From: a virus
Virus record (IMG/VR): IMGVR_UViG_3300011116_000739
Coordinates: 1 to 38,566 of that record
DNA length: 38,566 nt
Strand: one strand, 5' to 3'
The position numbers and the translations under genes were made by a program. Position 1 is the stretch's first letter, and each line of letters starts with the position of its first letter. Positions 15,305-30,413 of this stretch are shown here, piece by piece. Below the pieces are notes generated by a model. It saw nothing but the letters and a program-made list of their open reading frames with translations, was not told where the DNA came from and did not search any database.

Positions 15305-16438
15305 TTATTTAATTGAGAAATCAATATCATCTTCTGCTGAACTTGAATAGCCTCCACCACTTTTCATCTTTGGTGTTACTCCTTTAAGTTTATCTCTTAA
15401 AGTTGAAGCTTTCTGACTTGCAGCAGCAGTTGATATATATTTATTTAAGTTACCTTTATTTTTTAAGAATATAGCTAAAGCAACTCTGTCTTCTACACTA
15501 AGATTTTTTAAATCTTCTTGCATTTGTGAAGCATTGTTTTTAGTTGGTCTAGACATATAATCCATTATTGCTCTTTGCTCAGTAGTTGGAATGTTAAAGT
15601 TTTGTACTCTACCTTTTTTAATAGTAGTGTCAATTTCACCCCAAAATCTTTGCAATTGTTGTCTTCTTTGAATATCAGCTGCTCTTTGTTGTTCTAACAA
15701 TACAGCACGTTGACGATCTTGCATTTTGGTAAGTTTACCTGCTGCAATTTGTGCTTGTTTTGCTAAAGTACCAGAGATTTCTAAATCTTCTAAAGACTCT
15801 TTAATTTCTTCATCCGTGTAATCCATTTCTCTGTATAATGTTCTCATTACAGATTTTTGTACTGATTCATCTTTCAAATCAATAGTTGAAAAGTCAACTT
15901 CTGGATTAGCTGTAGTAAAGAATTGTTTAATGTTTTCTTCTGTTGCATCGTCACCTAGCATTTGAAGATAATCAAAAAATTCTCCTGCAATTGGAGGAAG
16001 AGATTCAAAGTATCCATTCAATTTTGCGTCAGCAACTTTATCCGAAGCATTGGTAATAAACTGTGCAAGTCCATCCTCTGTTTCTTCATAAGTTTCATCT
16101 TCATCGAATTGATAACCTAATTTTTCTGCTAATGTTTCAAAGAGCGTTGATTCAGATCCTTCATCATCTAAATCCAATTCAGGTTTAGGTTCAGGTTCAG
16201 GTTCTGGATCAGGTTGTTTTTTAGATGTCTTTTTAGGCTCAGGTTCTGGGTCTAAAATGTCATCTATAGGTTCAACCTTTTTTTCTTTTCCAACTTTTTT
16301 CTTTTCAGGTTGTGGTGTTGGTTCCACATCATCTACCACAATGTCTTTTGTAGTTTCTGTTTGAGTTGATTCTCCGACTTTAGTTAAGTCAAACTCTAAT
16401 TCCTCAAATCCTGCTTCTTTTTCATTGCTCATATTCAA
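15305..16438 (-). CDS. Acidic scaffolding-protein candidate
   Basis: 377 residues. The first ~110 are a low-complexity acidic and Pro/Lys-rich region (PEPEPKKTSKKQPDPEPEPE and DLDDEGSE), followed by helical sequence (LFETLAEKLGYQFDEDETYE, EFFDYLQMLGDDATEENIKQ) and a coiled-coil-like Gln/Arg-rich stretch (KLTKMQDRQRAVLLEQQRAA). The end, SGGGYSSSAEDDIDFSIK, looks like a short docking tail. Location between portal and capsid genes, acidic nature, helices and absence of enzyme motifs match phage scaffolding proteins. MSNEKE at codon 3 (16432) is an equally good start as MNMSNEKE. Confidence 0.65.
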   Translation of the reverse strand: MNMSNEKEAGFEELEFDLTKVGESTQTETTKDIVVDDVEPTPQPEKKKVGKEKKVEPIDDILDPEPEPKKTSKKQPDPEPEPEPKPELDLDDEGSESTLFETLAEKLGYQFDEDETYEETEDGLAQFITNASDKVADAKLNGYFESLPPIAGEFFDYLQMLGDDATEENIKQFFTTANPEVDFSTIDLKDESVQKSVMRTLYREMDYTDEEIKESLEDLEISGTLAKQAQIAAGKLTKMQDRQRAVLLEQQRAADIQRRQQLQRFWGEIDTTIKKGRVQNFNIPTTEQRAIMDYMSRPTKNNASQMQEDLKNLSVEDRVALAIFLKNKGNLNKYISTAAASQKASTLRDKLKGVTPKMKSGGGYSSSAEDDIDFSIK

Positions 16439-25936: not shown

Positions 25937-26160
25937 AACTCAGCTGCCTTTCTTAAAGCTACCACATATTCAATATACCCTTCTTTGTTAGTGTCAATAA
26001 TAGGACCACCTTCTCCAAAAGGACCAATGTGATAAGAGCCTTCTCCTACTTCTTCTTGTAATTGTTCTCTAAATTGTTCTTCATTAAACACGTATTCAGT
26101 GTTCTCATGTACAGAGATAGAACCTTGTTCATCTGCTGTGTTTATCGTTGTTTCTTCCAT
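25909..26160 (-). CDS. First gene of the leftward operon, acidic hypothetical (83 aa)
   Basis: 83 residues, acidic: MEETTINTADEQGSISVHEN, EEQFREQLQEEVGEGSYHIG, then a helix EYVVALRKAAELWASTHQKA. It is the leader gene of the virion operon, with its ATG at 26160 directly beside the divergent region, and overlaps RepL by 28 bases. An acidic small protein before RepL could be a copy-control or anti-repressor protein, but I see no motif. Confidence 0.55.
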   Translation of the reverse strand: MEETTINTADEQGSISVHENTEYVFNEEQFREQLQEEVGEGSYHIGPFGEGGPIIDTNKEGYIEYVVALRKAAELWASTHQKA

Positions 26161-26161
26161 G

Positions 26162-26330
26162 GTTCAAATATATGAACATTTATATTAAAAATGAACAATG
26201 TTCAAAAGTCCGAAGCTTAACTGTCTGAATATCAGGGAGAAATCTTGTGAAAATATAGATATATATATACTACAGTTTTATAGGTTAATATGCTGTTAAT
26301 CATATAGTTACGTGTTTAGGAAATGAACAT
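26162..26330. promoter_or_regulatory. Divergent control region with TGAACA-type operators; possible origin
   Basis: This AT-rich stretch separates the leftward virion operon from the rightward block. It has GTTCA-N6-TGAAC at 26162-26177, a perfect palindrome TGAACAATGTTCA at 26192-26204 and a third TGAACAT at 26324-26330, so the motif TGAACA/TGTTCA occurs in three places, as expected for a repressor or initiator binding site. Within the first repeat, CAAATATA (26165-26172) reads on the minus strand as TATATTTG, which matches the Bacteroidota -7 consensus TAnnTTTG; the matching -33 box is weak and the start point would fall close to the ATG. A very AT-rich block (26254-26300) would suit a melting element. 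Origin function is inference from the RepL gene beside it. Confidence 0.45.
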
Positions 26331-26340
26331 TGATAAAAAT

Positions 26341-26469
26341 ACCCCCCATAAGTAAGCCTTTAAAAACAAGCCCCCCCATACCATTTTTATTATAAGTATC
26401 GGGGGATGTGCCAGGTCAATTAAACAGCCCCGACCTATGAGGACACACTTTGTGTATCCCCACTTATGG
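26341..26469. other. C-rich blocks and inverted repeats before the hairpin array
   Basis: Two runs of C occur here, ACCCCCCAT at 26341-26349 and GCCCCCCCAT at 26370-26379, unusual in this AT-rich sequence, together with GGGGGAT at 26401-26407. CCATAAGT (26346-26353) and ACTTATGG (26462-26469) are a perfect 8-bp inverted pair around the whole segment. Inside, AGGTC/GACCT (26413-26417/26432-26436) and GGGGAT/ATCCCC (26402-26407/26456-26461) can pair, the latter in competition with CGGGG/CCCCG (26400-26404/26428-26432). This may be the 5' leader of the rightward transcript or part of an origin; mutually exclusive pairings suggest a switch, but that is inference. Confidence 0.4.
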
Positions 26470-26777
26470 AAAAAATTAAAATTTCTTCAATTGAAAGCCT
26501 CAAGGAGGCATTCAATTCTTTTGGCCTTAATGCTGCCGCAGAGGCCAAAAAGATTCTACAAGTTCCTACAGAACTTATTGCAGAATCGTTACTTAATAGT
26601 GTCAATGATGACACTAAGAAGTTAACGATTATCAAACTTCAAGGTTTCACCGTAAAGTTTGATACTGTTCTTTTGACAAAAATCATTATGTCAAAAGAAA
26701 TTGAAATTAGCCTCTTCGAGGCTGTTAATTCCAAAAATGAGACCATTAAATGGTCAAGGATTACTGCTGCAGTCTAA
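26466..26777 (+). CDS. 103-codon ORF within the hairpin array
   Basis: The frame from ATG 26466 to TAA 26775-26777 encodes a protein-like, Lys/Glu/Ile-rich sequence (MEKIKISSIESLKEAFNSFG to SRITAAV). It has two related pieces, IESLKEAFNS near the start and IEISLFEAVNS near the end, and in both the DNA encodes the same hairpin GCCTC-NNN-GAGGC. It lacks a Shine-Dalgarno site, as do most genes here. The unusual point is that the whole frame is packed into consecutive stem-loops (see the ncRNA entry), and its stop lies in the loop of the last long one. It may be a true coding RNA with extreme structure, or a non-coding RNA with a chance ORF; the smooth amino-acid composition mildly favours coding. 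No family recognised. Confidence 0.45.
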   Translation: MEKIKISSIESLKEAFNSFGLNAAAEAKKILQVPTELIAESLLNSVNDDTKKLTIIKLQGFTVKFDTVLLTKIIMSKEIEISLFEAVNSKNETIKWSRITAAV

Positions 26778-26828
26778 CGACTGTGGCAGTAATGCCTTTG
26801 ATTAGATTATATATGTATAGATAATCTA
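26489..26828 (+). ncRNA. Tandem array of about ten stem-loops
   Basis: Hairpins follow each other almost without gaps. (1) AATTGAA-GCCTC/GAGGC-TTCAATT, 26489-26517. (2) TTTTGGCCT/AGGCCAAAA, 26519-26550. (3) AAGTTC/GAACTT, 26560-26576. (4) AATCGTTA/TAACGATT enclosing AGTGTCA/TGACACT, 26584-26630. (5) ATCAAACTT/AAGTTTGAT with inner GGT/ACC, 26631-26663. (6) TTCTTTTGACA/TGTCAAAAGAA, 26668-26699. (7) AATT...AGCCTC/GAGGCT...AATT, 26705-26730. (8) GACCAT/ATGGTC, 26741-26755. (9) a 15-bp stem with two G-U pairs and loop TAAC, 26760-26793. (10) TAGATTAT/ATAATCTA, 26803-26828. About two thirds of the bases are paired by hand count. Loops are short (3-10 nt). It lies at the start of the rightward block. 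Role unknown: a structured leader, a protein sponge, or a strongly folded mRNA. Confidence 0.7.
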
Positions 26829-26918
26829 TCTGCCTTGTCACTCATCCCTATATTTATTACGTTTTAAAATTCTTTTCAAATCATAACTTTATATAGTATA
26901 ACACTTCTATATCATACC

Positions 26919-27050: not shown

Positions 27051-27058
27051 CTTCTTGT

Positions 27059-27432
27059 CCTAAGCATGACATTAAACTGCTTATTCTATTTCCAAATTCT
27101 AGTTATAATTAATTGGTAATATAACAGCTTAGACAACTGTTTTCCTATACTAGATAGGTTCTTATTGCTCATGGTAGTGGCTTCCATGTAAAATATTGAG
27201 ACTGCTTTATGAAACCTTAAATTAACCTGGAAAGGTTGTGCCGCTTGAAAGTCATGGCATGTAAAAGAAAACAACTTTATGATGATGCTAAAGCATTACA
27301 CCTAAGCATGTGTATAAACTGCTTATTTAATGCACCATTTCTACTTCCCAAGGGTAGACAATTGTAATATGTAATGGGGTGGAGAGGCTTGAGATAATAT
27401 CAAGATAGTAAACCAAATAAATATTACAATTG
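27059..27432 (+). ncRNA. RNA-like segment with a duplicated hairpin and long-range stem
   Basis: No convincing gene lies between 27051 and 27613. The 10-mer CCTAAGCATG occurs at 27059 and 27301, each time opening a hairpin TAAGCA-N11-TGCTTA (27061-27083 and 27303-27325), and the two copies stay similar for about 40 bases, so this is a diverged duplication. After copy 1 come GTTATA/TATAAC (27102-27125), CATGG/CCATG (27170-27188) and AACCT-GGAA-AGGTT (27224-27237). After copy 2, CAATTGTAATAT (27359-27370) pairs perfectly with ATATTACAATTG (27421-27432), enclosing CTTGA/TCAAG (27388-27404). This suggests two related structured RNAs of roughly 130-240 nt. Function is unknown. Confidence 0.45.
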
Positions 27433-27532
27433 AGTGCAGAGGGGATTAATTTTAAATTACTGGTTAAACCAGCATTTTAGCGTCAGTTATTGTATTTAAA
27501 CTGCGTTGGTAGCAACATAATAGCTATTCTTT

Positions 27533-27576
27533 GTATATGTTGTAACATATTGTATAACTTTATGTTACAACTATAC
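27533..27576 (+). promoter_or_regulatory. Long inverted repeat upstream of the small-gene block
   Basis: GTTGTAACATA (27539-27549) pairs with TATGTTACAAC (27561-27571), and GTATA/TATAC (27533-27537/27572-27576) extends it with one bulged T, about 16 bp in total. It is 38 bases before the first ATG (27614). Just upstream, TTGG (27506) and TATTCTTTG (27525) loosely resemble Bacteroidota -33/-7 boxes, so this could be an operator at the transcription start or a 5' RNA hairpin. Weakly supported as to function. Confidence 0.4.
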
Positions 27577-27613
27577 ATAGAATTTCAATTGTAAAACCTT
27601 AATAACCAATAAC

Positions 27614-27862
27614 ATGATAAAAAACTATTCTATTAAACTACTTAAATTATTAGTAGTTTTCGTTTTAACAAACCTGTTTGTTTTCCTTGTATTTCAAATT
27701 GCATATACCTTTGGTAATGGATTTGAAATTATGTCTGAAGGTGCTAGACACACTTCAGTATTCATCTCTTGTATAATATATGTGGGTATATTAGGTGTGC
27801 TGTTCTTTTATGAAGACAATAAAGAATCATTGGAAGAACCAATGTTATTGAAAACATTATGA
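27614..27862 (+). CDS. Small two-helix membrane protein (82 aa)
   Basis: 82 residues with two hydrophobic segments, about 9-34 (LLKLLVVFVLTNLFVFLVFQ) and 47-66 (SVFISCIIYVGILGVLFFY), and an acidic tail (EDNKESLEEPMLLKTL). It heads a run of tiny genes, with an ATGA overlap to the following lipoprotein. No family recognised; small early membrane proteins in phages often affect host membrane state or exclude other phages. Confidence 0.6.
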   Translation: MIKNYSIKLLKLLVVFVLTNLFVFLVFQIAYTFGNGFEIMSEGARHTSVFISCIIYVGILGVLFFYEDNKESLEEPMLLKTL

Positions 27863-28020
27863 GAACAATTATTCTCTTGACGGTAGTAATGATTACATTA
27901 CTATCGTCTTGTGGAATAAGTACATCAACTGTTTCCACATATTACAGACGTCAATACACTACAGATTCTACTGTAATAGACGTAACTTATGATTCAACTG
28001 TTACCTATTTATTTAAATAA
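27859..28020 (+). CDS. 53-aa small lipoprotein
   Basis: ATG at 27859 overlaps the TGA of the previous gene. The N-terminus MRTIILLTVVMITLLSSCGI has a lipobox LSSC; the mature part is Thr/Ser/Tyr-rich (STVSTYYRRQYTTDSTVIDV then TYDSTVTYLFK). It is the second small lipoprotein in this block and forms a pair with the upstream membrane protein. Role unknown. Confidence 0.6.
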   Translation: MRTIILLTVVMITLLSSCGISTSTVSTYYRRQYTTDSTVIDVTYDSTVTYLFK

Positions 28021-28323: not shown

Positions 28324-28588
28324 AAATTTTGGAATCATAATAGGAGGTATATTCCTATTATGTTCCATTCTATCTTTTGTGTCAACCCTTGATTATCAGA
28401 TAGATACAGTACAAACAGAAATTACTTTAAAATGTAATATCATTATGCTTATCATATCTGCTGTATTCTTTGTGTTCTTTTTAATGTATGCATTCCTATT
28501 ATCTAGTACAAGTAGTAGAGATTGGAATATACTATCATTAGAAGAGTATAAAGAAACAAAATATGGGCCATTTAAAGATAGATTTTAA
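28313..28588 (+). CDS. Small two-helix membrane protein (91 aa)
   Basis: 91 residues with hydrophobic stretches about 7-26 (GIIIGGIFLLCSILSFVSTL) and 43-64 (IIMLIISAVFFVFFLMYAFL), followed by a hydrophilic tail (SSTSSRDWNILSLEEYKETK). Part of the early small-gene run. Unknown function. Confidence 0.55.
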   Translation: MANRNFGIIIGGIFLLCSILSFVSTLDYQIDTVQTEITLKCNIIMLIISAVFFVFFLMYAFLLSSTSSRDWNILSLEEYKETKYGPFKDRF

Positions 28589-29176: not shown

Positions 29177-29434
29177 ATGTTAATAGCTAAAGAAGGTACC
29201 GAAGCAGTATGGAAATTTAGAGATGGGTCAATAGTACCCATTTCTAAATTATCTAACCAACAATTAAAAGAATGTAGAAACACTGCATTAAGACAGATGC
29301 AAAGGCATTATGACTTAATGAATCTCTTTACTGATTTAACAAATCAATTAGAAATTGAACTTCACGAAAGAATCCAACATGTACAACAAGAATTAGATTA
29401 TCTTGTTAATCAGGATTTAAGTGAATTAGATTAA
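29177..29434 (+). CDS. Small coiled-coil protein (85 aa)
   Basis: 85 residues. A short beta start (AKEGTEAVWKFRDGSIVPIS) is followed by helix (NQQLKECRNTALRQMQRHYD, LTNQLEIELHERIQHVQQEL) with heptad-like spacing, ending in acidic DLSELD. Ten bases after the SSB-like gene, so likely co-expressed. No family recognised. Confidence 0.55.
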   Translation: MLIAKEGTEAVWKFRDGSIVPISKLSNQQLKECRNTALRQMQRHYDLMNLFTDLTNQLEIELHERIQHVQQELDYLVNQDLSELD

Positions 29435-29716: not shown

Positions 29717-29908
29717 ATGAGTTTTAAAGAAAGATTAATTCAAGAAAGAGACGAATTACAATATAAACGTGATAAACTTGTTGTTTTTTTTAGTACAAAA
29801 ACATTTGATGATTTAGACAAACATCAACAAAATTTGTTACAAATTCAATCTAATGTAATGTTTACTTATCTTGAAATTCTTGATCAAAGAATTGAATTAT
29901 TAGACTAA
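29717..29908 (+). CDS. 63-aa helical hypothetical protein
   Basis: 63 residues, charged and helical (MSFKERLIQERDELQYKRDK, DDLDKHQQNLLQIQSNVMFT then YLEILDQRIELLD), with coiled-coil character at both ends. Last gene before the RNA-rich stretch at 29916. No function recognised. Confidence 0.5.
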   Translation: MSFKERLIQERDELQYKRDKLVVFFSTKTFDDLDKHQQNLLQIQSNVMFTYLEILDQRIELLD

Positions 29909-30276: not shown

Positions 30277-30413
30277 GAAAGAGTGGCGGAATAGGGGGTG
30301 CAAAGCAACTCCTTTGGTAGACGCAAGATTAGGTAAACTTGGATGTATCAATCCCTCTATTAATCTTATCTGATGATACTTATGGATTGCTGGTTCAAAT
30401 CCAGCCTCTTTCA
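30277..30413 (+). tRNA. tRNA-Leu-like gene with two hairpin insertions
   Basis: The ends are canonical: acceptor GAAAGAG/CTCTTTC (30277-30283/30406-30412), discriminator A, and T arm GCTGG-TTCAAAT-CCAGC (30389-30405). The D stem GCG/CGC (30286-30288/30322-30324) is that of tRNA-Leu, and its loop reads GAAT then TGGTAGA once 22 bases (30293-30314) are removed, exactly the usual Leu loop. Those 22 bases form their own hairpin AGGGGGT/ACTCCTT. The anticodon stem AGATT/AATCT (30326-30330/30362-30366) holds a 31-base loop instead of 7, with a small GGAT/ATCC hairpin. A long variable region contains TATC/GATA (30367-30378), as in type II tRNAs. No 7-base anticodon loop is visible, so decoding is doubtful; it could be a degenerate gene, a precursor needing excision, or a tRNA mimic. 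Confidence 0.6.

Follow-up and report, generated by a model that had tools for sequence, protein, structure and literature searches.

The DNA analysed here, called the window throughout, is the whole of IMG/VR record IMGVR_UViG_3300011116_000739, a 38.6-kb (38,566 nt) contig of an environmental crAss-like phage. The best terminase matches are to crAss-like phages at about 36% identity, and the Pfam family crAss001_48 matches at 29717-29905 (E = 9e-18). Judged from the crAss-like terminase and signature proteins, the phage belongs to the Crassvirales. From a divergent region near 26.2-26.5 kb, the early genes extend to the right and the late genes to the left. The divergent control region itself (26160-26406, no strand assigned), recognised from its sequence, its composition and the direct repeats D5 and D6, separates the rightward early block from the leftward block, which starts at 26160. 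It contains CCCC-rich repeats and GTTCA palindromes, a GC-skew minimum where the skew turns lies nearby, and a replication-initiator-like gene is found close to the start of the leftward block. On the rightward side, CCTAAGCATG..TAAACTGCTTA occurs twice in the non-coding stretch 27051-27613, which also has a long stem with GTGCAGAGGGG at its end. This stretch is kept in parts in L012, L013, L015, G009 and G004 (73-96%), its stem has two apparent compensatory pairs relative to L013 and G009, and from these comparisons it is likely a structured non-coding RNA. A tRNA match to Rfam at 30277-30413 is marginal (30.9 bits, gathering threshold 29), and ARAGORN makes no call.

The first rightward gene is a 103-aa ORF (MEKIKISSIESLKEAFNS..., 26466-26777, + strand), which bears out an initial sequence-only reading that had placed an array of hairpins at the head of the early block, beside the control region. 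The ORF is preceded by a conserved leader of type A (26407-26465, + strand), recognised by comparison of leaders, which carries GT-GCAGGTCAANNAAACANCCCCGACNNATG and a predicted stem around an A/C-rich loop; this first-gene leader motif does not recur frequently within the window. The translation-initiation region (26446-26483, + strand) is more open than the gene that follows, with an unpaired probability of 0.59 vs. 0.28-0.31 in the ORF body, and the first stable hairpin begins 23 nt past the A of the start codon.

From there on, 322 of 342 bases are spanned by ten consecutive hairpins, in agreement with the initial description of nearly every base as paired into such a row. On the + strand these are hairpin 1 (26489-26517, with a GCCTC-AAG-GAGGC core), hairpin 2 (26519-26550), hairpin 3 (26552-26587), hairpin 4 (26588-26626), hairpin 5 (26630-26664, centred on conserved GFT codons), hairpin 6 (26668-26699, a perfect 11-bp stem), hairpin 7 (26699-26730, with a GCCTC-TTC-GAGGC core), hairpin 8 (26741-26755, 6 bp), hairpin 9 (26756-26798) and hairpin 10 (26800-26830). 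The 11-bp stem and a 15-bp stem with two G-T pairs (26760-26793) are both present as described, as are the two GCCTC-NNN-GAGGC hairpins (26497-26509 and 26711-26723), and these short stems are all that the latter two have in common. No direct-repeat family or longer direct repeat was found among the array hairpins. The ORF is real, and the claim that it runs through nine hairpins needs one correction: hairpin 9 straddles the stop, with TAA in its loop and a non-coding 3' arm, and hairpin 10 lies wholly past the ORF. When the 340-nt segment is folded in isolation, the 5' arm of hairpin 1 pairs with the 3' arm of hairpin 7 as an alternative to the two local hairpins.

The strength of the fold is far beyond chance, as had been proposed. 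The + strand of 26489-26828 folds at -129.6 kcal/mol compared to -67.3 ± 4.9 kcal/mol for dinucleotide shuffles (z = -12.7), the - strand gives z = -14.5, and on neither strand was any shuffle as good. When the contig was scanned in 769 segments of 150 nt, ranks 1, 3, 6 and 10 of the best ten fell in the array, the most extreme of all being 26551-26700 (z = -9.1). Elsewhere in the contig the mean z per kb is about 0 to -1.7, so that folding is concentrated in the array gene and one small ORF. The second most structured stretch of the contig, 16151-16350 (z = -8.2), lies inside the repeat-coding part of the ORF 15305-16438.

Resampling the ORF with synonymous codons weakened its fold energy from -102 to about -53 kcal/mol (z = -8.8). 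Because replacement by synonyms destroys the fold, the hairpins arise from codon choice. Among 417 ORFs of six related contigs, this gene and its counterpart in contig L003 take ranks 1 and 2 in excess fold energy, and rank 3 is a 53-aa ORF of the same early block. This lipoprotein-like ORF (27859-28020) has an excess of -12.1 kcal per 100 nt, a synonymous z of -3.9 to -6.1 and a 13-bp hairpin at 27879-27908. Two more early ORFs have strong hairpins, at 28336-28362 and 29214-29250, which start 23 and 37 nt past their respective start codons. In phage phi14:2, whose 120 ORFs were examined in the same respect, nothing comparable to the array was found, and the hairpins of its first rightward genes are likewise not comparable.

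The stems come close to perfect Watson-Crick pairing, contain few G-T pairs and favour no particular codon phase, as would be expected if template switching during replication had perfected near-palindromes with no selection for structure. We consider such a mutational by-product improbable. A blind process would not be expected to act on one 300-nt gene among hundreds, to leave the initiation region open, to place hairpins at positions shared with L003, or to conserve a hairpin at the stop codon. The G-T pairs number 5 and 5 on the two strands of the window gene and 6 and 3 in L003, without a clear strand preference, and counts of G-T vs. A-C do not tell which strand acts. Because the pairing lacks a clear preference, the hairpins may act as RNA or as DNA, and both the by-product and a role at the DNA level keep a small probability.

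The homologues used for comparison, all in IMG/VR contigs, came to light solely by way of the genes next door and the leader motif. Searches with the array ORF in IMG/VR, phage records, Pfam, PHROGs and solved structures gave no annotated relative, nor did the GroES-like neighbour lead to any relatives when genome contigs were searched with it. The L003 gene is 31% identical in amino acids and 46% in nucleotides, with synonymous sites near saturation, and it has a hairpin array of its own (z = -11.7 against shuffles and -10.3 against synonyms). Stems, loops and pairing registers differ between the two genes, and the registers slip by one or more nucleotides. For this reason a position test of hairpin centres was used in place of column-wise covariation. 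Nine window hairpins have L003 counterparts, with the nearest centres a mean of 1.43 codons apart in the protein alignment vs. 3.0 when shifted or permuted. None of 200 circular shifts and 0.08% of 20,000 permutations were as good, which gives p of about 0.001. The counterpart of hairpin 3 lies at the homologous position, those of hairpins 5 and 6 lie at the same codon (the latter with an unrelated stem sequence), hairpins 4 and 7 are likewise matched, and the counterpart of hairpin 8 is 3.7 codons off, near an alignment gap. Because positions recur and sequences do not, what is kept seems to be double-strandedness and not a fixed motif.

These results bear on what the folded transcript could be. 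The sequence-only reading had offered three possibilities, of which an mRNA locked in structure is favoured: other lineages conserve the ORF as a protein, codon choice accounts for the hairpins, and L003 has hairpins at homologous positions. A new class of structured RNA is too strong a description, since what the data describe is a coding mRNA and a non-coding role would be hypothetical. The idea of a sponge for an RNA-binding protein finds no support because loops, stems and registers are not conserved between the two genes and there is no repeated motif, although a protein that reads double-strandedness alone could still be the partner. A bifunctional RNA, in which the folded transcript would serve as a decoy or effector binding a host protein and the ORF would be a passenger, is unlikely, if slightly less so than the mutational by-product. 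The whole region is structured, as such an RNA would be, and there is a precedent in the structured phage RNA from coding genes that is sensed by CBASS (PMC10686824). Against this, no loop, stem sequence or register is conserved between the window and L003, no Rfam covariance model matches 26489-26828 up to E = 1, which also sets aside a known Rfam family, and the ORF is kept as a protein in four lineages. A Y-RNA-like role with a Ro/TROVE partner was rejected after no Ro/TROVE match was found in six contigs.

The array itself is not general in the family. The genes of L005 and L013, which are 72% identical to each other, keep the protein while most hairpins are absent (synonymous z = -1.2 and -2.1, respectively), and the L008 gene, almost identical to that of L005, likewise lacks most of them. 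Of the two outcomes named beforehand as counting against the array, one was thus seen, the protein being kept without most stems, and the other was not, since shuffles fail to reproduce the fold. Because these three genes keep the protein without most of the stems, the array is confined to particular lineages, the stop-codon hairpin excepted. That hairpin, with its non-coding 3' arm, is common to all four genes (window, L003, L005 and L013). In a comparison of stop-spanning hairpins over the 417 ORFs, L005 and the window gene take ranks 1 and 2 in strength, whereas L003 has a weaker one. An array of intrinsic terminators was rejected because no T run follows the window hairpins, hairpin 10 included. 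Only L003 has such a terminator, directly after the ORF at the place of hairpin 10.

The terminator of L003 would fit a short, separate transcript, and this is one point in favour of a more general armour, by which the first early transcript would be shielded from RNases of the host or of defence systems, such as RNA-targeting CRISPR or ribosome-associated toxins, and given a longer life, whatever its protein does. Structure over the whole length without conserved motifs fits a demand for double-strandedness, and the cassette exchange described below fits an arms race. However, apart from the 53-aa ORF no further gene of this phage has such a build, and the L005 and L013 homologues manage without the hairpins. 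We regard this reading as a possible one, doubtful but more probable than the bifunctional RNA.

The leader is far more conserved than the ORF and is exchanged together with it. Its predicted stem has 10 pairs, only 1 of them compensatory, so that conservation of the stem is suggestive at most. Contigs L013 and L016 are 98-99% identical on either side of the cassette, whereas the genes that they carry between GTGTTGCAGGT and AACAAAACATTAACATC, both about 98 aa long, are unrelated and have different leader types. The L016-type cassette is also present in L012 and L015, and L004 has a third ORF with a similar leader. The C-terminus of the L016 cassette protein (L016:3187-3480) is weakly similar to g113 of phi14:2 (NC_021806.1, 98914-99417; E = 0.2). 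No more than about 200 nt separate the ORF from the contig end in L002, L003 and L008, as might be expected of assemblies that break at a variable locus. The locus is an exchangeable slot for the first early gene in environmental crAss-like phages. This exchange also bears on a function of the DNA, in which hairpins would extrude from single-stranded or supercoiled DNA beside a replication origin or early promoter. The GC-skew minimum and the replication-initiator-like gene next door would suit it, as would the few G-T pairs and the equally good folding of both strands. We nevertheless hold it to be about as improbable as the mutational by-product: contigs 98-99% identical on both flanks carry an array-free cassette at the same site (synonymous z = -1.75 for the L016 gene), and the array keeps to the ORF, with hairpin 10 alone lying wholly beyond the stop codon.

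The product of the gene was modelled with AlphaFold2 from four sequences (pLDDT 71.6). Foldseek searches of the PDB and BFVD with this model gave nothing significant. Structural re-alignment gave weak matches, mostly to OB folds (RPA, POT1, Cdc13 and the anticodon domains of AsnRS and LysRS), with Z up to 5.6. The model of the L016 cassette protein, of low confidence (pLDDT 55.1), has many SSB and PriB matches. The OB-fold matches of both cassette proteins are weak hints from models rather than assignments. The SSB family PF00436 does not match the product, and no canonical SSB was found elsewhere in five contigs. From the model, we infer that the product is probably a single-strand-binding protein.

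There is good support for selection on structure in a translated gene; the purpose of the hairpins we infer. The reading we prefer, at a probability of roughly 0.38, is that a coding mRNA has been selected to fold as a row of hairpins which armours the message against its own OB-fold product and against single-strand nucleases. The row would start just past the footprint of the initiating ribosome and run to the stop codon. The product, an OB-fold protein binding single-stranded nucleic acid and presumably made first in infection, would become abundant, and the hairpins would deny single-stranded RNA to it and to single-strand-specific nucleases. Binding and any self-regulation would be confined to the conserved leader, so that the message would stay intact and translatable. 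The narrower proposal, that coding hairpins stop the single-strand-binding product from coating its own mRNA while regulation has moved to a leader swapped with the gene, is more tentative, and we rate it no higher than the general armour. Three observations speak against the preferred reading: the protein does not require the hairpins, as L005, L008 and L013 demonstrate, the OB-fold call is weak given the confidence of the model, the Foldseek outcome and the best Z score, and the pairing favours neither strand clearly. The locus might reveal the way in which a phage protects its first transcript or keeps it under control. It offers a clear example of a DNA phage gene whose codon choice seems, along its entire length, to serve the folding of RNA (or DNA), and the small size of the gene permits direct recoding.

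Several known systems invite comparison. CRISPR and TIGR arrays (PMC12045711) resemble the row in their tandem units of about 30-40 nt, but an array of either kind was rejected because the hairpins have no repeated unit sequence and an ORF runs through them. The cabRNA of staphylococcal phages, which triggers a host cyclase and is sensed by CBASS (PMC10686824), is likewise a structured RNA from phage coding genes; it originates from terminase genes and has the cyclase as partner, whereas the array has no known partner of this kind. In T4, gp32 represses its own mRNA: it spreads over an initiation region that lacks structure and lies 3' of a pseudoknot (PMC535899, PMC3014915). Here, too, a possible single-strand-binding protein is combined with a conserved, perhaps structured leader upstream of a phage gene. 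However, control in T4 lies in the unstructured initiation region, whereas the array folds the coding region itself and binding is putative; our scheme would invert the logic of gene 32. In positive-strand RNA viruses, genome-scale ordered RNA structure (GORS) consists of long series of local stem-loops through coding sequence (for example PMC7566573, PMC7642675). The array shares with it a hairpin series laid through coding sequence by codon choice, with fold energy beyond composition- and codon-matched controls. Whereas GORS spans a whole virus genome, the array occupies a single gene of about 310 nt in a double-stranded DNA phage.
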